A stretch of 33,839 nt of DNA, taken from positions 1 through 33,839 of IMG/VR virus record IMGVR_UViG_3300008450_000213. One strand, written 5' to 3'. The translations under genes and the position numbers were made by a program. The notes below the pieces were generated by a model. The model worked only from the letters and a program-made list of their open reading frames with translations, had not been told where the DNA came from and did not search any database. The stretch comes from a virus. Of the stretch, positions 16,167-33,011 are shown piece by piece; position 1 is the stretch's first letter, and every line of letters begins with the position of its first letter.

Positions 16167-16718
16167 ATGATACGGCTTAAAAAATTATTACTAGAATTAT
16201 CAGACAAAGATTTGAAACGTTTATTAAAAAAAATACAAGACAATCAGTTTAAATTTGTCGGGCAAGGTGATAATGGCCGCGTATATGAAATTGACGGTGA
16301 AGACAAAGTTTTTAAAATAACAAGAGATGATCAAGAATTTGAAGTTGCTCAGAAAATTGAAGGTGAGTTAACTATATATACTACGTTCATTCCGGTATAT
16401 TATACTGGAAAACATGATTCGCATAACATGATAATTATGTCAAAAGCAGATCCCGTGACGTCATCGCAAAAACAAATGATTGATCAATTCGTAGAACAAT
16501 TTAAACAATATTCATACACAGAAGGTGGTGAAGTTTCTATATTTGATTTTTTAGATAGCGAACAACAAATAAATATACATCCTCTATTAGAAAACTTTTT
16601 ACGTGCCTTACAAACCGATGTTAGAAAAACTAATATTGAAGAATTAGATTTAGATTTAGATTTTAAATCTGACAATGTAATGGATTGGAATGGCAAAATG
16701 GTAATGGTTGACTGGTGA
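16167..16718 (+). CDS. Minimal protein-kinase-like protein with capsid-targeting-like N-terminus
   Basis: A 183-residue protein. The N-terminus MIRLKKLLLE ends in L-x-E, like T4 capsid-targeting peptides cut by prohead protease gp21. Kinase-fold motifs follow in order: a glycine loop G32-Q-G-D-N-G-R-V-Y40, the VAIK-like V48-F-K50, a Glu-rich helix (E57-E67), a hinge-like IIMSKADPV, the catalytic loop D165-F-K167-S-D-N170, and a DFG-like D182-W183. The protein stops exactly after D-W, so the activation segment and most of the C-lobe are missing. It could be a minimal active kinase, a pseudokinase-like binder, or a remnant. It begins 1 base after the tail protein stop with an AAAGG ribosome binding site. 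Confidence 0.65.
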   Translation: MIRLKKLLLELSDKDLKRLLKKIQDNQFKFVGQGDNGRVYEIDGEDKVFKITRDDQEFEVAQKIEGELTIYTTFIPVYYTGKHDSHNMIIMSKADPVTSSQKQMIDQFVEQFKQYSYTEGGEVSIFDFLDSEQQINIHPLLENFLRALQTDVRKTNIEELDLDLDFKSDNVMDWNGKMVMVDW

Positions 16719-16746: not shown

Positions 16747-18207
16747 ATGAGTACACGTTTAGATCATGTAATACGAAAATATTTAACTGAACAGACCCGG
16801 CCGACGTATAAATATATGGCAAAAAAGCCAGATGCTGATAGTACGAACTTTATTAAAAATAAGATATGTCCCTTATTTAAAATTGATCCTAGTACCGTAG
16901 GGGTAGCATCTAGTCCAGATCCAAAAAAAACATGGCAACAAGGTCGTTTAGTTAGAATTGATGGTTTAGAATTTCAAATAAATCGACGTAACGCTATGCC
17001 AGCTGGACAAACAGATCCATTTTCAACTGCAGACTCATCGATAAAACAAGCAACTAAACTACGAACTTTATTACAAAGTTACATGAATACAGGTTTAGCT
17101 GGGGTTTGGCAGAAGGCAACTTCCACAGGCTGGTTTTGGTTTATTAGCACAGATCAAAATTTAGATAATAAAAAAGAATCTTTTAAAAAGAAAGATACTA
17201 GAACATTTGCAAAATATGTATACGTTTGCACGTATGTTAAATCTGATGTGTTTCCCCCGTCACTTTCATTGAAAATAACATCTGCTACTAAAGGATATAT
17301 GTTTACACTGAATGATGGTGCATTAGTTTTTGATTTAGCTGAAATTGATGCAGCACAATGGAAAATAATGACACCAAAAACATATAGTGGAGATGATGCA
17401 GCACTTTTATCCTCTCCCGGTGTTCCTCAATCAATAATGAGTTTTGGTAATTATAATGCGGATGGAGTATCTGCATTAAATTATTATTTAGGTATATCTA
17501 ATGAATTAGAATCTAATGCTGAATTTAAAGCGTTACAAGCAGATTTTCCAAAATATTTTATTTCGACAGCCGGTGCTGTAGAAGATGGTGAAACTAATCA
17601 ATTACCAGACACATATACCTGCGTGCAGCAAGAATTTATACGTGTTTTACAAGATAAAGCTTCTAAAGCTGGGTATTCTATAAATGTTAATGGGCAATAT
17701 GATATTGCAACAATTAATTATCTAAATGGCAGAAAAGATAAAAATAATAATGTATTACCATATTATAGATTTGATGATGCTGATATACCTTCTATTATAA
17801 ACAAAATTCGTACTTGCCTAGGAAGTCAGCCAGCAGCAGTTACAAGCAGTGAAATACAAGTACCAGAAGGCGGATTTAAAAAGAATCAAACAAATGATCC
17901 AGACAATTTTGGTAAAGTTCAAGATTTACTATTAAATGCTTATATTGCATTAAATAAAAAGAATCCAGAATTTTTTCCATTAAATGCTAGTGAATATACA
18001 AACTTAAAAAATGCATTAGCTAAAACACCAAGTCCGCGCGGAGGATATGGAGATAGGACACAAGCATTAGCATTGTATATTGCAGACGGGATTCCAGACT
18101 TAAAAAATAATACTAAACTAAAAAATAATATTATAGATGCAGATGTAATACGAATATTAAAAAAGATAACAGATCCCACTGTAACTAAAACAATTAAAGA
18201 CAATTAA
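16747..18207 (+). CDS. Putative internal (packaged) protein, 486 residues, unknown function
   Basis: The N-terminus MSTRLDHVIRKYLTEQ ends in L-T-E before Q, a possible gp21-type processing site, so this may be a packaged protein. An in-frame ATG at 16708 would put the late promoter element inside the gene, so 16747 is preferred. The body has an alpha/beta domain of about 200 residues (GRLVRIDGLEFQINRR; TGWFWFISTDQN; AKYVYVCTYVKSDVFPPSLS). Two C-terminal segments (INVNGQYDIATINYL and GGYGDRTQALALYI) faintly resemble the G-x-Y/F-x-x-x-T-x-x-A/Y-L pattern of peptidoglycan-binding domains. No catalytic motif is recognised. The C-terminus is Lys/Asn-rich. The next gene is 15 bases downstream. Confidence 0.6.
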   Translation: MSTRLDHVIRKYLTEQTRPTYKYMAKKPDADSTNFIKNKICPLFKIDPSTVGVASSPDPKKTWQQGRLVRIDGLEFQINRRNAMPAGQTDPFSTADSSIKQATKLRTLLQSYMNTGLAGVWQKATSTGWFWFISTDQNLDNKKESFKKKDTRTFAKYVYVCTYVKSDVFPPSLSLKITSATKGYMFTLNDGALVFDLAEIDAAQWKIMTPKTYSGDDAALLSSPGVPQSIMSFGNYNADGVSALNYYLGISNELESNAEFKALQADFPKYFISTAGAVEDGETNQLPDTYTCVQQEFIRVLQDKASKAGYSINVNGQYDIATINYLNGRKDKNNNVLPYYRFDDADIPSIINKIRTCLGSQPAAVTSSEIQVPEGGFKKNQTNDPDNFGKVQDLLLNAYIALNKKNPEFFPLNASEYTNLKNALAKTPSPRGGYGDRTQALALYIADGIPDLKNNTKLKNNIIDADVIRILKKITDPTVTKTIKDN

Positions 18208-18222
18208 ATAAAAATTCTAGAT

Positions 18223-19101
18223 ATGAAAAAAATAATAATTAACGAACAAGGGGCTGGTGATAAATCGAATGATACTAAATCTGGCGATGAACTTATTATA
18301 GTCGATCCTAGAAAAAGTCGACAACCTGATAAGCCTGTTGTTAAAAAACCTAGTACCGGAAATAACAAAACTGATAAAGGGGCTGGTGATAAATCGAATG
18401 ATACTAAATCTGGCGGTGAAGAAAAAAAGGATGAAGTACCAGTAAAGGGAAAAGTTAATCTATGTGATGCATTAGCAAAAAAGAAAGGTTTTAAATCAGA
18501 AAAAGAATTAGGTGCATCTGTTAGAAAAAATCCAACGTTATGGACTATATTATCTTCAGCGTATTATAAAAGTAACACGTTAAACTTATGTGCAGATTTT
18601 CTAGAAGAAATTGCAAACGAGACTACAGCGTCAAATATAAATGAATCATTGATACTTTCAAAGCTATCGGCATTTTTATCAAAAGGCTCTGTCGATGTTC
18701 GATGTAAATATCTAGATTGGGTAATCCGTATGCAAAATCCAGCATCTACTGTTTATAAAAATTTAACAAAATATCGTAAACAATATAACATATTATTTCA
18801 ACTCGCCTCTGGCGGACGTACTGTTGATGCAATTTCATCGATACCAATACATTCAAGCATAAAAACATTAACTGATTTAGTTAATCCGGCTTCACAATTT
18901 GGAGACTGGTTAGATACGCATGATATACAGACAATGAGTAAATTTAAAGGGATTGTTGGAACTAATTTCAAATTTGAAAGAACTGGAGATGAATATAGTA
19001 AAATAACTTTTACTGCGCCTGTATCTACACAGACTTTACAAAAAATAGTTTTAACTATATATGAATATTTTCCTTGTTTAAGTGAATTTAAGAAATCATA
19101 A
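18223..19101 (+). CDS. Putative internal (packaged) protein with duplicated linker, unknown function
   Basis: A 292-residue protein. It starts MKKIIINEQ, again an I-N-E before Q as in T4-type prohead protease sites. A hydrophilic linker (residues 10-80) contains GAGDKSNDTKSG twice, 43 residues apart, reflecting a DNA-level direct repeat. The C-terminal domain (about residues 84-292) is helical with several Cys (NLCDALAKKKGF; LCADFLEEIA; DVRCKYLDWVIRMQN) and ends with beta/alpha elements. I do not recognise the fold. It shares N-terminal layout and location with the two preceding genes, which suggests a set of head-internal proteins. Confidence 0.6.
   Translation: MKKIIINEQGAGDKSNDTKSGDELIIVDPRKSRQPDKPVVKKPSTGNNKTDKGAGDKSNDTKSGGEEKKDEVPVKGKVNLCDALAKKKGFKSEKELGASVRKNPTLWTILSSAYYKSNTLNLCADFLEEIANETTASNINESLILSKLSAFLSKGSVDVRCKYLDWVIRMQNPASTVYKNLTKYRKQYNILFQLASGGRTVDAISSIPIHSSIKTLTDLVNPASQFGDWLDTHDIQTMSKFKGIVGTNFKFERTGDEYSKITFTAPVSTQTLQKIVLTIYEYFPCLSEFKKS
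18248..18286 (+). repeat. Direct repeat, copy 1 (39 bp)
   Basis: Perfect 39-base match to 18377-18415, in frame (129 bases apart, 43 codons), encoding most of GAGDKSNDTKSG. Identity at third codon positions points to a recent duplication. Confidence 0.9.
18377..18415 (+). repeat. Direct repeat, copy 2 (39 bp)
   Basis: Second copy of the 39-base repeat at 18248-18286. The match continues for 4 more bases after a single A/G difference. Confidence 0.9.
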
Positions 19102-19108
19102 ATTTGTT

Positions 19109-19591
19109 ATGGTAAAAAATCATTGGCATGGAGCCGCGAATAGTAAACGAGCGACTGCATATAAATACGGTTACAAATCAGGATTGGAATTAACAGTAGC
19201 AGATCAAATTAAATCTACTGAATATCCTTTGAAATATGAAACTGAAACTATACATTATATAGTACCTGAACGAAAAGCAAAATATACTCCAGATTTTGTT
19301 TTTATTAAACGAGATGGTAGTTTTATGTTTGTAGAAACTAAAGGACGATGGACTAGTGCAGATCGTTTAAAAATGAAACACGTGCTAGCATCAAATCCTG
19401 GTGTCGATATACGAATAGTATTTCAATCACCTACACAAAAAATATCTAAATCTAGCAAAACTACTTATGAAGGGTATGCAAATAAACTAGGAATTACACA
19501 CGTTGCAAAAAAAACAATTCCTGAAGAATGGCTTACTGAGTGTTTAAAGAACGGAGAAGAAGTAGTAAATGTAAAGAAATTTTTTACATAG
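19109..19591 (+). CDS. Endonuclease I, T7 gp3-like Holliday junction resolvase
   Basis: A 160-residue protein with the full T7 endonuclease I signature. Counting from ATG 19109: S-G-L-E27, the Y-x-T-E strand with E44, Y-T-P-D62-F, and F-V-E76-T-K78-G-R-W. These correspond to T7 catalytic residues E20, E35, D55, E65 and K67. The distal segment (DIRIVFQSPTQKI; KTTYEGYANKLGITHV; KTIPEEWL) also follows T7 gp3. It should cleave branched DNA, debranching replicative DNA before packaging. A GTG at 19082 in frame would overlap the previous gene by 20 bases, so ATG 19109 is preferred. T4 uses the unrelated endonuclease VII (gp49) for this task. Confidence 0.9.
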   Translation: MVKNHWHGAANSKRATAYKYGYKSGLELTVADQIKSTEYPLKYETETIHYIVPERKAKYTPDFVFIKRDGSFMFVETKGRWTSADRLKMKHVLASNPGVDIRIVFQSPTQKISKSSKTTYEGYANKLGITHVAKKTIPEEWLTECLKNGEEVVNVKKFFT

Positions 19592-19769: not shown

Positions 19770-20711
19770 ATGAAAAATCTGAAGTTATTACAATTATTAG
19801 AATCGGTTCTAGGTAAAGGAAAACCTACGTCTGGTGATAACATCGCATTTTTCTCTCCATTCGTTTCTCACTATAAACCTAAATTAGAAATTAACATACA
19901 AACTAATCACAATGGTGAAAACGTTTGGCATTGTTGGATATCTGATAAAAAAGGTCGTAGCATAACTACATTGTTCAGACAGCTTAACTTACCTAAAGAA
20001 AAGTTTGAGCAACTATCTAAAATAATTGAATCTTCGAAATACCGCAATGTAAAAACAGACGACGTTAAAGTTATATTACAACTGCCGGAAGAATATCGAG
20101 CACTTTGGATAAAAAAGAATACACCGGATTATAAAAATGCAATTCATTATTTAACTAATCGTGGTATTACTACATTTGATATTTTAAAGTATAGAATAGG
20201 ATATTGTGAACAAGGAGAATATTCCGGCAAGATTATTATTCCTAGTTATGATGCCGATGGCCAACTGAATTATTTTGTAAGCCGAGCATTTTATCGAGCA
20301 GACACTCAAAAACACAAGAATCCAAAAATATCCAAAGACATCATTGGTTTTGATTTAACTATTAACTGGTCACAACCTATTGTGCTTTGCGAAGGTGCAT
20401 TTGATGCAATTGCCGTTAAACGAAATGCAATACCGTTGTTTGGTAAAATCATACAACCTGCGTTGCAGAGAAAAATCATAGAAAAGCGAGTAAGAGACAT
20501 TTATATTTGTTTGGATGCCGATGCATTACGTAAAGCAATACAAATTGCAGAACGTTTTATGGCAGAAGGATTAAATGTTTATTTTATAGAATTACAAGAT
20601 AAAGATGCTGCGGATTTAGGTTTCGTAGAAATCAATAAAATCATACAAGATACCGACGTATTAACATTTGAACGGTTAATGCAACTTAAAATGGGACTCA
20701 TATGGACATAA
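19770..20711 (+). CDS. gp61: DNA primase, T4 gp61-like, with degenerate zinc ribbon
   Basis: A 313-residue Toprim primase. Toprim motifs are IVLCE208GAFDAIAV and YICLD249AD251A, with LQDKDAADLG downstream. Upstream, SGKIIIPSYDADGQLNYFVS and RAFY match the region before Toprim in gp61/DnaG. The N-terminal segment aligns with the primase zinc ribbon (H34-x-KPKLEIN, then W53-H-C-W), but the expected CPxC is S29-P-F-V32 and the CxxC is C55-W-I-S58, so only one of four Cys remains. It would make RNA primers for lagging-strand synthesis with a helicase encoded elsewhere. The gene follows the 178-base regulatory gap and overlaps the next start by 10 bases. Confidence 0.85.
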   Translation: MKNLKLLQLLESVLGKGKPTSGDNIAFFSPFVSHYKPKLEINIQTNHNGENVWHCWISDKKGRSITTLFRQLNLPKEKFEQLSKIIESSKYRNVKTDDVKVILQLPEEYRALWIKKNTPDYKNAIHYLTNRGITTFDILKYRIGYCEQGEYSGKIIIPSYDADGQLNYFVSRAFYRADTQKHKNPKISKDIIGFDLTINWSQPIVLCEGAFDAIAVKRNAIPLFGKIIQPALQRKIIEKRVRDIYICLDADALRKAIQIAERFMAEGLNVYFIELQDKDAADLGFVEINKIIQDTDVLTFERLMQLKMGLIWT

Positions 20712-23700
20712 AAAAAATTGATGTTGGATTAGATTGGATTGATAGAATATATCATATATCCGATGTGCATATTCGTACATTGAAACGACACCGAGAATAC
20801 AAACAAGTATTTGAAAATTTATTTGATCATATTGCATGTAACTGTACCGATAACAGCATAGCAGTAGTAACCGGAGATATTGTGCATAGCAAACTAGATA
20901 TGTCTCCAGAGTTAATCAATATGCTTGTTAATTTCTTTGATGGCTTCATGATACCTACCGTTGTTATACTAGGCAATCATGACATGAACTTAAACAATAT
21001 GCACAGAACCGATGCAATAAGTCCAATACTCAATGTAATCAAAAATCCTAATGTAATTTTTGTTCGGGAAAACGGATTGTTTGAAATTGCCGGAGTTGTG
21101 TTTAATCATATGGCTGTTGATGTTCCACCTTCTGAATATATTAGAGCAGAACAGTTTAAAGCTGCATATAAAATAGCATTGCATCATGGAGCTGTAAACA
21201 CTGCAAAAACAGATATTGGATATCAAATTTCTAATGAGCATGTTGGCGTTGAATTGTTTGATGGACATGATATCACATTGTTGGGAGATATTCACAAACC
21301 AGCTCAATTCCTAAACGATGCGGGTACTGTTGCATACCCCGGAAGTCTTATTCAACAAAATCATGGAGAAGCATTAGATCATGGAATATTGGTATGGGAC
21401 TTGCCAGATCGCCAAGCTGAATTTGTGCATATAGAAAATGATTATGGATATGTAACATTGGAATGTGAAGGAACTACCATAATTAAGGCTCCACACCGTA
21501 TGCCAAAGAAACCTCGCATACGAATCAAATTCAATGATACATCTGCAGCAGATATGAAAAAACTTATCGCTGTTATACGTAAAAAATATGATGTACAGGA
21601 TATAACTATTCAACGTAATGCTAATAACGTGTCTACCGAATCTACATCATCTTTTACTATAGGCAATGTTCGGGATGTTGAGTATCAAAACACATTAATT
21701 ACTGACTATATTGCAACAAATTTTCCACAAGCAACTGCAGAAGAAACTGATGCTATACGACATATCAATCGCACAATTAATTCAAAATTACCTGCTGTTG
21801 AATCTGTACGACACATGACCTGGCATCCAATACGATTTGAATTTGATAACATGTTTTCATATGGGGAAAGTAACGTAATTAATTTTGAAAACTTGCAAGA
21901 TGTATGTGGGTTATTTGCAGCAAACACTTCCGGTAAATCTTCTTTGCTAGATGCAATAACATATACTATTTTTGATAAGTGTAGTAAAACGGGTAAAGCA
22001 CATGAAGTTTTAAACAATAAAAAATCTACATTTTGTGGTAAGTTTACCTTTGAAATGAATGGTATTACATATACAATTGAAAGAACAGGTATCAAACAAA
22101 AAAATGGCCACGTTAAAGTATTAGTAGATTTTTATACCGACACAGAAAATTTAAACGGCGAAGAACGAAGTGATACAAATAAATCAATTCGTAGGTATTT
22201 AGGAACTTATGATGATTTTATTTTAACGGCATTTTCATTACAAGCTGACAACAACAATTTCATAGAAAAATCTCAACGCGAACGAAAAGATTTACTTTCA
22301 CAGTTTTTAGATATTACGGTGTTTGAACAACTATATCAATTAGCATCTGACGAAATAAAAGAAACTGCAGGGAAATTAAAAGAATACAAGAAAACAGATT
22401 TTGCAGATATTATTATACAAAATGATGCAGTTATATCGAGTAATCAAGATAACATAATAGAATTAGAACAGCAAGAAAATGAATTTCAAAATCATAGAAA
22501 TATTGCTCAAGACAAAATTGTTACGTTGATTGAAACAAAATTACCTACCACATATAATGGGCCAGATATTACAAAATTATATAAACAAGAATCTGATTTA
22601 ATTAAAAAAATTGATGAATTACAAACAGAGATTGAGCAATCAGAACAACTATTAGAAGAATTAAAAACACAAGATTCTACAATTAAAAAAGAAATACGTA
22701 CATATGATGAAACTGGATTATTAGAACAACTAGACCAGTTAAAAATATTCAACGATAATCTTGAAAAAATTGAGAATGACATTAAAAAGCAACAAGGAGT
22801 TGTAAATGCAAAACAAGAAAAAATTAAGCATCTTGAATCTCATGAATATGATCCAAACTGCAAATACTGCACATCTAACATTTTTGTACAAAACGCAATT
22901 GAAGCGCAGAATACAATCAATCAGGATAGAGATGTATTAACAGATTTACAAAATGTTAAACAAGATATTTCATATGAAATTGCGTTATTGCAACAATATA
23001 AACAACGGTATTCTGAACTAACTACATTGAAAACTAATTTACAAAACAATCAGAGTGCAATTGAAAAATTAGAATTGCAACTTCAAATCATAGAAAATGA
23101 ATTACAAACTAAAGAATCTGAATTAGAAACATGTTTAGAACGACAAGATTCATTTCATCAAAATGCAACTGCTATAATTCATAATCAACAAGTAGATTCA
23201 AAAATTACAACTTGTAAAAGCAACATTGAAACATACACAGAAAAAATAAAATCTATACAAGAAACTATTAAATCTTTGTTTGGGGCAATTGAAGTGGCAA
23301 AAACAAATAAAGCCGCGGCATTAACGCAGTTAGAATCTTATCGACAATTAGAAACGGAATATAAAGCCTTTGAATATTATTTACAAACAGTAAAACGAGA
23401 TGGGATTCCATATGAATTAATTTCGAAGGCAATGCCAAAAATTGAAACTGAAATAAACAATGTATTAAATCAAGTAGTAGATTTTAATATGGTACTTCAA
23501 AGTGATGGTAAGAATATCAACGGATATATTATTTATGATGAAGATAACTTTTGGCCATTAGAATTAACAAGTGGAATGGAACGATTTATTTCATCATTAG
23601 CAATACGTATAGCACTTATCAATGTATCTGCATTACCTCGGCCTAATTTTATAGCAATCGACGAAGGTTGGGGTAGTTTAGATGCAGAACATATATCGTC

Positions 23701-23842
23701 TGTAGTAAACTTGTTTGATTACTTTAGAACTAAATTTGATTTTTCTATTATTATATCACACGTAGATTCGATGCGTGATATGGTTGACAATTTAATTGAA
23801 GTAAACAAGATAAACGGATATAGCCAGATTTCGCACAATTGA
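20702..23842 (+). CDS. gp47-gp46: Mre11-Rad50 (SbcD-SbcC, gp47-gp46) fusion protein
   Basis: One 1046-residue open frame. Residues 1 to about 350 are the Mre11/SbcD phosphoesterase: D21-x-H23, G58-D59, G91-N-H-D94, then ALHHGAV, LLGDIHKP and YPGSLIQQ. From about residue 375 it is Rad50/SbcC: FDNMFSYGESN, Walker A (N-T-S-G411-K412-S413), long coiled coils with a zinc hook C720-K-Y-C723, the ABC signature LTSGMERFISSLAIRIAL, Walker B FIAID987E988, D-loop SLDAEH and ISHVDS. T4 gp47 and gp46 are separate proteins acting in recombination-dependent replication and host DNA degradation. The A-x4-GKS form replaces the usual first Gly of Walker A. No internal stop or frameshift separates the halves. 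Confidence 0.93.
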   Translation: MDIKKIDVGLDWIDRIYHISDVHIRTLKRHREYKQVFENLFDHIACNCTDNSIAVVTGDIVHSKLDMSPELINMLVNFFDGFMIPTVVILGNHDMNLNNMHRTDAISPILNVIKNPNVIFVRENGLFEIAGVVFNHMAVDVPPSEYIRAEQFKAAYKIALHHGAVNTAKTDIGYQISNEHVGVELFDGHDITLLGDIHKPAQFLNDAGTVAYPGSLIQQNHGEALDHGILVWDLPDRQAEFVHIENDYGYVTLECEGTTIIKAPHRMPKKPRIRIKFNDTSAADMKKLIAVIRKKYDVQDITIQRNANNVSTESTSSFTIGNVRDVEYQNTLITDYIATNFPQATAEETDAIRHINRTINSKLPAVESVRHMTWHPIRFEFDNMFSYGESNVINFENLQDVCGLFAANTSGKSSLLDAITYTIFDKCSKTGKAHEVLNNKKSTFCGKFTFEMNGITYTIERTGIKQKNGHVKVLVDFYTDTENLNGEERSDTNKSIRRYLGTYDDFILTAFSLQADNNNFIEKSQRERKDLLSQFLDITVFEQLYQLASDEIKETAGKLKEYKKTDFADIIIQNDAVISSNQDNIIELEQQENEFQNHRNIAQDKIVTLIETKLPTTYNGPDITKLYKQESDLIKKIDELQTEIEQSEQLLEELKTQDSTIKKEIRTYDETGLLEQLDQLKIFNDNLEKIENDIKKQQGVVNAKQEKIKHLESHEYDPNCKYCTSNIFVQNAIEAQNTINQDRDVLTDLQNVKQDISYEIALLQQYKQRYSELTTLKTNLQNNQSAIEKLELQLQIIENELQTKESELETCLERQDSFHQNATAIIHNQQVDSKITTCKSNIETYTEKIKSIQETIKSLFGAIEVAKTNKAAALTQLESYRQLETEYKAFEYYLQTVKRDGIPYELISKAMPKIETEINNVLNQVVDFNMVLQSDGKNINGYIIYDEDNFWPLELTSGMERFISSLAIRIALINVSALPRPNFIAIDEGWGSLDAEHISSVVNLFDYFRTKFDFSIIISHVDSMRDMVDNLIEVNKINGYSQISHN

Positions 23843-26599: not shown

Positions 26600-29101
26600 A
26601 TGGATAAAATAACAGTCTTATTTCCCGGAGGTTTTAAACCATTAACCGGAGCTCATTTAGAATTAGCAACCCGATATGCACAACATCCAGATGTACAACG
26701 TGTAATCATGTTGATTGGACCAAAAGATCGAGATGGTATTACACAACAAAAAACTATTGATATATTCAATTTAATTAATCGAGATGCTAAAATAGAAATG
26801 CGGCCTACACCATTTAATTCTCCTATCATGGCTGCTTATGAATATTTATTTGCATTGCCAGAAGATACTAAAGGTCGGTTTGCCATGGCAGCTTCTACTA
26901 AAGGAGATGATTATGTACGAGCAAAGGCATTCGTTCCTAATGTAGATAAATACATAACCATTGGTGATAAATCAGGACGAATGATTCCAACCGGAGTTAA
27001 TGCTGTTGAATTGAATATAGATGTAGATCCATTGCTATATAAAAACGGAGATCCTATCTCAGCATCTACTATACGAGCTGCACTGCAACAAGATGAATAT
27101 AAAACGTTTCGAGCTTCATATCCAAAACAAACAGAAGCTGAAGTTAAAAACATATGGCAGATACTAAAAGGAATACAAGAATCAAAAATGTTTTCTGTAG
27201 AATGGTGGAAACAACAGTTACGCGCTGATATTGAAATGTTTGAATCCATGATGTTTCCTAAAGAAAAAGAACGACACTCTGATAAAATAAAAAAACTTAG
27301 ATCTTTCTTAGATTCAAATAACGGAAAATCATTTGTATATGATTTTGATAAATTTAAGAAAACAGTGTTTGGTGCAAAACTTTTAGAAAATGTTATCACA
27401 GAAAATTATATAACTAGAGAAGAACTATCTACTATTGAACAAGCAGTTGATGGGTTCTTTCGGGAATTTGGAATTGATGTAGATTTTCAAGGAAAGTTTA
27501 CTCACTTCATTGAACGACTAAATGATCCTAGAAATGAAGCTCCTATATACACAGATGAATTAACTGAATTTTTTGAGGAACTTGCTGACGAATATGGAGA
27601 TGATATTAGAAATCAAGTAGATCAGAATAAAAATACTGCAGTGGCATCTGATTATCAATTCGATGTTCCAATACATATGCCATTCATGTTAAGATGGGAC
27701 GGCAAAAAAATCAGATTAATTCCTAGAACTATTAAAAAGCAACGACGGCGTTGGCAATCAAATGATCCAAGCGATGTAATATATACAATAGAATCATTAA
27801 CCGAAAGTCAACGTAGATACGGAAGCATGATTATAGAAGGCGGTGCAGCAGGTCATATGGCACACCCTTGGGACGATCACGGACTATCTTTTAACGATAT
27901 GAAAGAAATTGTAGCACGTGCGTTATCCGGTCGTTTAGATATAGAACAGGCAGTTACTGAAAAAACTGATGGACAGAATATATTTGTTACATGGAAAGAT
28001 GGACAACCAGGATTTGCACGTAATAAAGGTACCGTTATTAATCCAATGACTCCAGAACAATTAGTTGCTGATTTTGAAAGAAAATATCAAGAATCAGTGC
28101 AAAAAAATGGAGCTGAATCTGCAGAAGGATATAAATTAGTTGTTGACGCATTTCGAGAAATGTCACAGGATGTTACTGCTGCATTATCTAAAATTGATTC
28201 GGCAAAACTCAATGAAATATTTAAAAATGGACGAGTATTTGCAAACATGGAAATAATTTATCCAGCAACACGCAACGTTATTGCATATGATAAAGCACAT
28301 TTACAATTTCATAATCTTGTTGAATATGATGAAAAGGGCAATGTAATTCAAACAGATTTAACTGGCGGAGCATTAATGCAAACAGTTATACGGGATGCTA
28401 ATGCACATATGCAAAACACATTTTCATTTATACCTCCACAACAAATTAAGTTAGGACGAGTTTATGATTTTGAAGATCAACAAGCAGCATTTTTCAATGA
28501 GATTGATCAGTTACAGGCAAAGTATAATTTGAAACCTACTGATTTAATCAGTGAATATCATAAAGCATGGTGGCGTGATACTATACGAAGTAAAGCTCAA
28601 CAATTAAATTATGATATCCCGGAGAATATTTTAGATGCATTAATGTATCGTTGGTCATTTAATGATAAATCTACTAATATTGCTGCGTTAAAAAAACAAA
28701 TTGATAATCCTGAATTTTTAAATTGGGTTACAGAATTTGACAAGAAAGATTTTAAATCATATAAAAAACAAAACTTAGAACCATTTGAATCTATTTTTTT
28801 AAGATTAGGAGTTGTTGTATTACAAAATGCATCTAATTATTTAGCAGCAAATCCAAATAAAACAGTTCAAACTATTAAATCAGAAATGGCAGAACTGATA
28901 CGAGATTTACAAACAACTAGCAACCCAGACACTATTAAAAAATTAGAATTAGAGTTACAGCGTATACAAAAACTAGGAGGATTTGATGCAATCGTACCGT
29001 CTGAAGGAGTAGTATTTACATATCAAGGTAATACATATAAAATGACTGGCGCGTTTGCCCCGGTAAATCAGATTTTAGGAGTGTTAAAATACGCACGCTG
29101 A
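26600..29101 (+). CDS. Fusion of NMNAT/cytidylyltransferase-like domain and ligase-like covalent nucleotidyltransferase
   Basis: An 833-residue protein. Residues 1 to about 190 form a Rossmann-type nucleotidyltransferase: F-P-G10-G-F-K-P-L-T-G-A-H19 (HxGH-type site) and I153-S-A-S-T-I-R159 (ISxTxxR), as in NMN adenylyltransferases and cytidylyltransferases. A helical, charged linker follows (about 190-400). From GGAAGHMAHPWDDHG (about 414-428) comes a ligase-superfamily pattern: motif I E-K455-T-D-G458, R-N-K-G nearby, a motif III-like F-A-N-M-E551, a motif IV-like S-E802-G-V-V-F and a motif V-like Y-K814-M. A long helical insertion separates motifs III and IV. Possible roles are NAD or nucleotide metabolism joined to RNA/DNA end repair; the substrate is unknown. 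Domain calls are by eye. Confidence 0.75.
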   Translation: MDKITVLFPGGFKPLTGAHLELATRYAQHPDVQRVIMLIGPKDRDGITQQKTIDIFNLINRDAKIEMRPTPFNSPIMAAYEYLFALPEDTKGRFAMAASTKGDDYVRAKAFVPNVDKYITIGDKSGRMIPTGVNAVELNIDVDPLLYKNGDPISASTIRAALQQDEYKTFRASYPKQTEAEVKNIWQILKGIQESKMFSVEWWKQQLRADIEMFESMMFPKEKERHSDKIKKLRSFLDSNNGKSFVYDFDKFKKTVFGAKLLENVITENYITREELSTIEQAVDGFFREFGIDVDFQGKFTHFIERLNDPRNEAPIYTDELTEFFEELADEYGDDIRNQVDQNKNTAVASDYQFDVPIHMPFMLRWDGKKIRLIPRTIKKQRRRWQSNDPSDVIYTIESLTESQRRYGSMIIEGGAAGHMAHPWDDHGLSFNDMKEIVARALSGRLDIEQAVTEKTDGQNIFVTWKDGQPGFARNKGTVINPMTPEQLVADFERKYQESVQKNGAESAEGYKLVVDAFREMSQDVTAALSKIDSAKLNEIFKNGRVFANMEIIYPATRNVIAYDKAHLQFHNLVEYDEKGNVIQTDLTGGALMQTVIRDANAHMQNTFSFIPPQQIKLGRVYDFEDQQAAFFNEIDQLQAKYNLKPTDLISEYHKAWWRDTIRSKAQQLNYDIPENILDALMYRWSFNDKSTNIAALKKQIDNPEFLNWVTEFDKKDFKSYKKQNLEPFESIFLRLGVVVLQNASNYLAANPNKTVQTIKSEMAELIRDLQTTSNPDTIKKLELELQRIQKLGGFDAIVPSEGVVFTYQGNTYKMTGAFAPVNQILGVLKYAR

Positions 29102-31427: not shown

Positions 31428-33011
31428 ATGGCTCAACCAACTAACATAAAGCAAATAATACAACAGCAGTACATGATGTGTGCTAAAGATCCTGTGTTCT
31501 TTATGCGTAACTATTGTTATATACAACATCCAAAGCGTGGTAAAATTAAATTTAATCTATACGATTTTCAAGAAAAATCATTAAGCGAATTACGAGATAA
31601 CAGATACAATGTTATACTTAAGTCTCGACAGTTAGGCATTTCAACTCTATCCGCCGGATTTGCTCTATGGAGTATGTTGTTTGCAGAAGACTTCAATGTA
31701 TTAGTTATTGCAACAACTCAGGAAGTTGCAAAAAACTTAGTTACAAAAGTACGGGTAATGCATGAAAATTTACCTAGTTGGCTAAAAGGTACGGTTGAAG
31801 CGGATAATAAATTATCATTAAAATTTAAAAATGGTTCACAAATTAAAGCAGTATCATCAGCAACTACAGGAGCCCGTTCGGAAGCATTGTCATTGTTAAT
31901 TGTGGATGAGGCTGCATTTATTCGAAACATTGAAGAAATATGGATAGCATCTCAAGCAACATTATCAACAGGTGGTGGTGCTATTGTGTTATCTACTCCT
32001 AATGGTGTTGGTAACTGGTTTCATCAAACATGGGCCGATGCTGAAGCTAATATTAACGGATTCCATACAATTAAATTGCATTGGACCGTACATCCCGAAC
32101 GCGATCAACAATGGCGTAATGAACAAACACAATTATTAGGCGAACGTGGAGCTGCACAAGAATGTGATTGTGACTTTATTAGTTCGGGACATACTGTAGT
32201 AGACGGTGGATTGCTTTTAGAATATGATGAAAAATGTGCAGATCCTATCGAAAAAAGAGGATTTGATCACGGATATTGGATTTGGGAATATCCAGATTAT
32301 TCTAAAGATTATATAGTAGTAGCAGACGTCGCTCGGGGTGATTCTACAGACTTTTCAGCATTTCATGTTTTTGAGGTAGAATCTGTAACACAAGTAGCAG
32401 AATATAAAGGAAAGCTTCCTCCTAATGATTTCGGAAACATGTTAGTTACAGTCGCATCCGAATGGAATAATGCATTACTAGCAATAGAAAATGCAAATAT
32501 TGGATGGGCTGCAATACAGCCAGCAATAGATAGAGGATACCAAAATTTACATTATACATATCGTGATGATGGGTACACTGATGAATCAGTTCAACTCAAA
32601 AAAGGTTATGATATGAAAGATAAATCACAAATGGTCCCGGGTGTCTCTACAACGACAAGAACACGTCCATTAATGATATCTGCATTAGAAATGTATATGC
32701 GGCAAAAAACACCTACTATTCGTAGTAAAAGACTAATACAAGAACTATTTGTTTTTGTTTGGCTAAATGGTAAAGCTCAAGCACAACAAGGATATAACGA
32801 TGACTTAGTAATGTCATTTGCGATTTCATTGTGGCTACGAGATACAGCACTTCGATTACGGCAGCAAGGCATAGACTTAAATAAACGAGCACTATCACAA
32901 TTTCAAAAAACAGCACCGGTAATTTTTACTAACAAACCCAATGCCCGGGATACGGGTTGGTCATGGGATACTGGTTTCGGCGATGAAAGTTTAACATGGT
33001 TAATTAAATAA
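31428..33011 (+). CDS. gp17: Terminase large subunit, gp17-like (packaging ATPase-nuclease)
   Basis: A 527-residue protein that pumps DNA into the prohead and cuts it. The ATPase domain has an adenine-binding-like Q48, a deviant Walker A K65-S-R-Q-L-G-I-S-T73 (no Lys in the GKT position; the Lys lies upstream), and Walker B L-L-I-V-D160-E161, followed by a coupling-type motif VLSTPNG. The RNase H-like nuclease domain shows VVADVARGDSTDFSAF, LAIENANIGWAA and the C-terminal NDDLVMSFAI with paired Asp. It is somewhat shorter than T4 gp17 (610). The ATG is adjacent to the previous stop. The portal gene follows after 44 bases. Confidence 0.93.
   Translation: MAQPTNIKQIIQQQYMMCAKDPVFFMRNYCYIQHPKRGKIKFNLYDFQEKSLSELRDNRYNVILKSRQLGISTLSAGFALWSMLFAEDFNVLVIATTQEVAKNLVTKVRVMHENLPSWLKGTVEADNKLSLKFKNGSQIKAVSSATTGARSEALSLLIVDEAAFIRNIEEIWIASQATLSTGGGAIVLSTPNGVGNWFHQTWADAEANINGFHTIKLHWTVHPERDQQWRNEQTQLLGERGAAQECDCDFISSGHTVVDGGLLLEYDEKCADPIEKRGFDHGYWIWEYPDYSKDYIVVADVARGDSTDFSAFHVFEVESVTQVAEYKGKLPPNDFGNMLVTVASEWNNALLAIENANIGWAAIQPAIDRGYQNLHYTYRDDGYTDESVQLKKGYDMKDKSQMVPGVSTTTRTRPLMISALEMYMRQKTPTIRSKRLIQELFVFVWLNGKAQAQQGYNDDLVMSFAISLWLRDTALRLRQQGIDLNKRALSQFQKTAPVIFTNKPNARDTGWSWDTGFGDESLTWLIK

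Follow-up and report, generated by a model that had tools for sequence, protein, structure and literature searches.

A putative capsid-cargo precursor of a T4-like phage combining nucleotidyltransferase-like and RNA-ligase-like modules

Introduction

A protein that carries the motifs of two different nucleotidyltransferases raises the question of whether it acts as a single enzyme, producing a cofactor for its own use, or is a chain from which separate enzymes are released. Such a protein of 833 amino acids is encoded by an ORF running from ATG to stop at 26600..29101 (+ strand) of the window analysed here, which is the whole stretch of one 33.8-kb virus record (IMGVR_UViG_3300008450_000213, 33,839 nucleotides) with no second contig of the same record. 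An original prediction, made from the sequence alone, had placed the sets TGAH/ISxTxxR and K-T-D-G ... E-G-V-V-F ... K on this one protein and had suggested a single enzyme that makes and uses a nucleotide cofactor. The ORF is real and the residue numbering right, and neither motif set is a matter of chance, as both are conserved across relatives. In addition to what had been predicted we found a third module (aa 269–392) and conserved sites in the linkers, giving the order N – linker 1 – M – linker 2 – C, and we regard one coupled enzyme as less likely than separate cargo enzymes.

Results and Discussion

By its sequence the genome that hosts the 833-aa ORF is that of a T4-like phage. A T4-type large terminase (gp17; 31428..33011, +, Pfam Terminase_6N) lies 2.3 kb downstream and shows 57% identity to the terminase of Microcystis phage Mel-JY01 and 55% to that of Flavobacterium phage immuto, and the ORF adjoins terminase, tail and other structural genes. 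Elsewhere in the window a 1046-aa ORF (20702-23842, +) combines metallophosphatase and SMC/Rad50-type parts (Pfam Metallophos E=3e-10, SMC_N E=7e-6) and resembles a fusion of T4 gp47 and gp46, and a Phage endonuclease I family protein is encoded at 19082-19591 (+; Pfam Phage_endo_I, E=1e-31) in this T4-like phage.

Scans of the whole protein against Pfam, PHROG, NCBIfam and PADLOC gave weak or no matches except for PHROG 23027, a family of unknown function, over M, and a sequence search of the PDB returned no significant match for the 833-aa protein. An AlphaFold2 model was built on an alignment of 58 diverse rows, which also served for the conservation counts and of which 49 contain the N module. 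The model is confident over aa 1-192 (N) and aa 422-833 (C), and the stretch between them was predicted with low confidence.

The N module (aa 1-190; 26600..27169, +) is modelled with a pLDDT of about 80-91 over most residues, and Foldseek matches the model to 8aih, 3otw, 1m8j and 2r5w in the PDB (probability 1.00), which are NaMNAT, NMNAT and PPAT structures, and to phage cytidyltransferase-like proteins in BFVD; the Pfam match to CTP_transf_like (E=0.011) falls short of the Pfam cut-off. The motif GGFKPLTGAH (aa 10-19) includes the catalytic (H/T)xxH signature T16-G-A-H19 (26645..26656, +) with A instead of the usual G at the third position, and T16 and H19 are present in all 49 rows with the module. 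Further downstream I153-S-A-S-T-I-R159 (27056..27076, +) forms an ISxTxxR-type motif in which S154, A155 and R159 are at least 97% conserved. Judged by modelled fold and both motifs N is a HIGH-superfamily nucleotidyltransferase of the NaMNAT/NMNAT/PPAT-like kind, within which NMNAT, PPAT and cytidylyltransferase cannot be told apart here by sequence or fold, so that the predicted NMNAT-like domain stands at this level.

The ligase-like domain was likewise borne out by the predicted fold. For the C module (aa 414-833; 27839..29098, +), an RNA-ligase-type covalent nucleotidyltransferase by Foldseek and BFVD, the best ligase match in the PDB is 9do4 (T4 Rnl1; E=7.8e-4, probability 0.89), followed by Trl1, Rnl2 and an archaeal RNA ligase, with low TM-scores of about 0.2 of the target, and BFVD gives viral RNA ligases. 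Motif I, K455-T-D-G (27962..27973, +), holds the candidate adenylated lysine, R474 in ARNKG (28019..28021, +) is the counterpart of the Arg/Lys that follows motif I in RNA ligases and is aligned by hhalign with AKRTG of Rnl2, motif III is N549-M-E551-I-I-Y-P (28244..28264, +) and matches NMEWCAP / NFEFVAP of Rnl1, motif IV is E802-G-V-V-F (29003..29017, +) and motif V contains K814 in K-[LM]-T-G (29039..29041, +). All 58 rows share K455, D457, G458, R474, E551, E802, G803 and K814, and the C sequence FANMEIIYPATRNVIAYDKAHLQFHN aligns with VNMEWCAPNNRIVLEYPEAKLVILN of KVP40 Rnl1. The second Lys of motif V (KxK) is absent and is replaced by Thr816 in 58/58 rows, and because of this we call C ligase-like and do not file it as a member of Rnl1. 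Profile scores are weak: PHROG 562 matches 6/15 members for C (best E=0.005), and hhalign against Rnl1 aligns the correct motifs at E 0.03-0.09, profile-profile comparisons that do not suffice on their own given the low diversity of the alignments (Neff ~2). C shares KxDG, the NMExxxP motif III, the EG of motif IV and the Lys of motif V with T4 RNA ligase 1 (gp63), but differs from it in a large helical stretch inserted after motif III and before motif IV, in K-x-T for K-x-K, in a conserved GGxxGHMxHP start and in its place within a putative cargo chain.

As T4 Rnl1 is also annotated as tail-fibre attachment catalyst and is the closest fold match, C could mainly be a factor for tail-fibre attachment or assembly whose ligase chemistry is secondary or lost, which would also fit the neighbouring tail and terminase genes and the missing Lys of motif V. 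However, the remaining residues for nucleotidyl transfer are invariant in rows as diverse as these 58, and the fusion of C to N, to kinase/zeta-toxin and to HAD-like modules suggests nucleotide or RNA chemistry, making a main role in tail-fibre assembly very improbable. Among the roles considered for C, a putative one against RNA-cleaving defence is the likeliest.

Between N and C lies the M module (aa 269-392; 27404..27775, +), which is weakly RegB-like and is matched by PHROG 23027 in 9/9 members. M is missing from about one third of the N-containing fusions and occurs as a stand-alone protein in marine T4-like phages as well as in Methylophilales and other phages. A stand-alone relative matches Pfam REGB_T4 at E=0.0011 and the endoribonuclease family PHROG 1323 at E=0.006, and hhalign of M against RegB gave E=0.015 with controls at 0.19-0.35, again at an Neff of about 2. 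The relatives match the T4 endoribonuclease weakly over the HxxDR helix, but M lacks the His of the ELFHK stretch of RegB, which moreover is a stand-alone enzyme, and its model (pLDDT 74) found no match under E=0.7 in a fold search, YoeB/HigB2 appearing only at E ~3. An M-like module is also present in immuto gp080 (L083:8160-8918), a separate 252-aa gene upstream of the terminase.

Relatives of the whole protein are encoded in 180 IMG/VR stretches, and C-module relatives in at least 561. The loci examined comprise 83 N-M-C and 42 N-C architectures, 28 in which C stands by itself or has different partners, and a small number of partial forms, counts in which some contigs were entered twice. 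The Mel-JY01 fusion is of the N-C type. C stands alone in L086, L149 and L156 and N in Lak phages, and L063 and L106 encode the fusion as two overlapping ORFs (370 + 414 aa in L063), which is either a natural split or a frameshift. A 484-kb phage record joins ParB-like, nucleotidyltransferase and C modules in 915 aa (the first two assigned by eye), and in a 462-kb record C is alone and adjoins a 653-aa protein that ends with a nucleotidyltransferase. Longer chains of 780-1543 aa combine C with kinase, HAD-like and other enzymes, including a zeta-toxin/P-loop kinase-like domain in L160 (Pfam E=3.7e-11), a Zn_protease-like domain in L153 (E=4.5e-7) and a HAD-like sequence in L120 (DUF2608, E=2e-4); an SGNH-like stretch in L128 and an ART-like stretch in L147 were recognized by eye only. 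Furthermore, immuto gp088 (L083:2103-4826), annotated as NadR and showing Pol-beta-like and metallopeptidase-like parts by eye, is probably another multi-module protein of this kind.

These data bear on the single bifunctional enzyme, in which NAD, or a different adenylylated product, would be made by N and used by C within the same polypeptide for RNA repair or modification. N and C are the most constant partners, both being present in most fusions examined, and their catalytic residues are intact. However, the modules are also found apart and with other partners, and the linkers between them are predicted to be disordered and carry the protease-type sites described below. Rnl1-type RNA ligases use ATP, and as C is of this type no NAD made by N would be needed and no product would have to be transferred. 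The NAD-salvage half of the idea is not supported, as a search for NadV-type genes (PF04095) was negative in 12 related records, of which several are incomplete, and in a published survey all NadM-containing phages carry NadV as well (PMC9503650). Thus we consider the single coupled enzyme clearly improbable. A second RNA ligase occurs in only two of the 12 records, in G003 above and in Mel-JY01 below the family cut-off.

T4 gp21 and its giant-phage relatives cleave after Glu following a short motif (PMC9026906, PMC5694885), and both linkers contain candidate sites of this kind (a slash marks the cleavage point). Linker 1 (aa 191-268; 27170..27403, +) has disordered ends (pLDDT <50 at aa 193-222 and 252-276) flanking a small basic helical stretch, and its candidate Glu residues are E194, E215, E263 and E268. 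E215 (27242..27244, +) lies in MFE/S, with the family pattern [VMFI]xE/[GAS], and its column has 90% E, 100% hydrophobic P3 and 100% small P1' at a P2 entropy of 2.3 bits. E263 (27386..27388, +) lies in LLE/N with 100% E, 100% hydrophobic P3 and a P2 entropy of 3.1 bits, and E268 (27401..27403, +), just before M in ITE/NY, is 100% E with only I or L at P3 and a P2 entropy of 2.4 bits. Linker 2 (aa 393-413; 27776..27838, +; pLDDT <50 at 395-419) contains E402 and E413, the latter (27836..27838, +) just before C in IIE/GG. There [LIVMFY]xE/GG is found in 78 of 81 distinct family contexts with 11 different P2 residues, and the Glu is missing in the other three, two of which carry an HNH-like insert at the junction, and in LR756508.

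Overall the density of [LIVMF]xE[GASN] per 1000 residues is 42.9 in linkers, 2.1 in domains and 6.1 (max 9.5) in shuffled linkers, which is about 20-fold that of the folded domains and 7-fold above linker composition. Among 21 conserved Glu columns 5/6 in linkers (194, 215, 263, 268 and 413) and 0/15 in domains fit the pattern (Fisher 2.9e-4, post hoc), and the linker sites keep P3 and P1 at a variable P2, which varies at all five except E194. As a pattern in the sequence, [LIVMF]xE/[GASN] corresponds to the gp21-type signature of T4-type prohead proteases. The relatives do encode a prohead protease with ...SLTE/S near its N end, and N-terminal segments of their capsid proteins end with LVKE/A, LISE/A or IVSE/A; the window's own protease and capsid genes fall outside the window.

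The junctions also accommodate extra modules. In L065, L066 and L076 a module of about 200 aa, HNH-like by eye, sits exactly at the E/GG junction before C and is followed by a site copy that reads LLVC/GG. We also considered an intein, but saw none of the ends that are typical of one. Linker 2 of L030, L037, L041, L056 and L076 carries a small zinc-ribbon-like insert (CxxC...GGxDLYVCHECGHDN).

In T4 the internal proteins IPI-III and Alt are capsid cargo with short leaders that are cut by gp21 and are ejected into the host, residues 4 and 7 of the leader being important in targeting and residues 8 and 10 in processing (PMC9026906); IPII and IPIII start with MKTYQEFIAE/A. Stand-alone relatives of M and C share this leader pattern. 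M proteins start with MKNFADYITE, MIRFNQYITE, MKTFKDFLKE, MKTFLTYLDE or MSTFLEYLNE, and 8/45 distinct leaders fit the strict pattern while many more start with MKTF or MKSF. C proteins start with ...SYEEFLNENLILE/GG or MKIYNNFEQFVTE...LILE/GG, their T4-comparable leaders ending with LILE/GG or FLFE/GG. A scan of 886 distinct ORFs showed [YF]xxF[LIV]xE at a 22-fold higher density close to the N end than in the interior, a figure from no more than six hits, of which three are the very C proteins that had suggested the pattern. In contrast to the T4 internal proteins, which are encoded by separate genes, the window protein is one multi-enzyme chain with internal sites, and a T4-style N-terminal capsid-targeting leader was looked for in it and is absent, as the nucleotidyltransferase starts directly; among the N-first fusions examined a leader is present only in L120 (MKSILQEFKQHLAE). 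A recurrent [ST]K[DE]WW stretch precedes the linker sites and is a candidate signal for head entry of the leaderless window protein.

Virion data exist for more distant proteins. S-CREM2 gp154, a cytidylyltransferase that belongs to the HIGH superfamily like N but stands alone (286 aa) and is too distant to align with the N profile, was detected in virions by mass spectrometry, and NMNAT-like virion proteins are listed for the cyanophages S-CBWM1, S-SZBM1 and S-SCSM1 (PMC10665884). S-CREM2 gp154 starts with MKNFSSFLTE/A. For the lineage of the window phage we found no virion proteomics in the literature.

The same domains could also form a late cytoplasmic enzyme that is not packaged, with the xE sites being due to chance linker composition or to host proteases. 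The missing N-terminal leader would agree with this, and virion-associated nucleotidyltransferases may be carry-over according to the authors who reported them (PMC10665884). However, the sites are 7-fold more frequent than expected from linker composition and keep P3 and P1 at a variable P2, and stand-alone relatives have leaders resembling capsid-targeting ones, so that we regard a non-packaged enzyme as unlikely.

Three neighbouring genes of the window (16167-16718, 16753-18207 and 18223-19101, all +) have no Pfam match and encode proteins with LLLE, YLTE and IINE at their N ends, the first being kinase-like by eye. Going by the hydrophobic-x-E near the N ends, they are possible further capsid cargo.

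Taken together we consider it probable that the product of this gene is a modular precursor of cargo enzymes, which in this T4-like phage is packaged and cut by the prohead protease and whose enzymes are injected. This explanation is suggested by the folds of N and C and the invariance of their catalytic residues, by the shuffling of the modules (N-M-C, N-C, C alone, split, other partners), by the linker sites with their kept P3 and P1, by the protease and the xE/A capsid segments of relatives, by the T4-like leaders of stand-alone M and C and of the virion protein S-CREM2 gp154, and by the neighbouring terminase and structural genes. Against it speak the missing leader of the window protein, the contexts without Glu before C (3/81 and LR756508), the weak C-Rnl1 profile scores together with the altered motif V, and the fold search with M that gave nothing significant. 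The precursor would be produced late alongside head and tail proteins and would enter the prohead, where a gp21-type protease would cut it after the hydrophobic-x-Glu sites of the linkers. This would free the N nucleotidyltransferase, a small basic peptide, the possibly RegB-like M and the Rnl1-type RNA ligase C, and these would then enter the host together with the DNA. There C could use ATP to seal RNA cut by the host, for example tRNA cut by anticodon nucleases, N could restore or make a nucleotide cofactor and M might cut RNA.

The polyvalent proteins of phages and plasmids (Iyer et al. 2017, PMC5512222) are among the nearest described counterparts of this family. They are large proteins of mosaic, multidomain build whose genes lie between those for virion components, and packaging and injection have been predicted for them. 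The fusions show the same mosaic architecture and setting among virion genes, and loci related to the window gene carry kinase-like, ParB-like and other such domains. That study never saw 2H domains of the polyvalent type together with RNA ligases, and NMNAT did not come up when its text was searched (PMC5512222). Polyvalent proteins, T4 internal proteins, RNA ligases and virion nucleotidyltransferases are each already known, and in a limited search of open papers we found no precursor that joins NMNAT-like and ligase modules via prohead-protease-type sites.

Conclusion

In summary we have described a phage protein family in which a nucleotidyltransferase module and an RNA-ligase-like module with invariant catalytic residues are shuffled and joined by linkers with conserved hydrophobic-x-Glu sites. 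That the chain is a capsid-packaged polyprotein, which is cut inside the head and delivers ligase, nucleotidyltransferase and nuclease-like domain in equimolar amounts before any phage gene expression, is possible and falls somewhat short of probable. Phage RNA-repair enzymes are known as products made after infection. If the polyprotein is indeed packaged, virion-borne RNA repair would be active from the first minute of infection, which would explain how a phage could withstand defences with immediate tRNA cleavage, and hundreds of unnamed ‘cytidyltransferase-like’ phage genes would gain a function. The linker sites also provide a testable rule to find cargo modules in T4-like phages.
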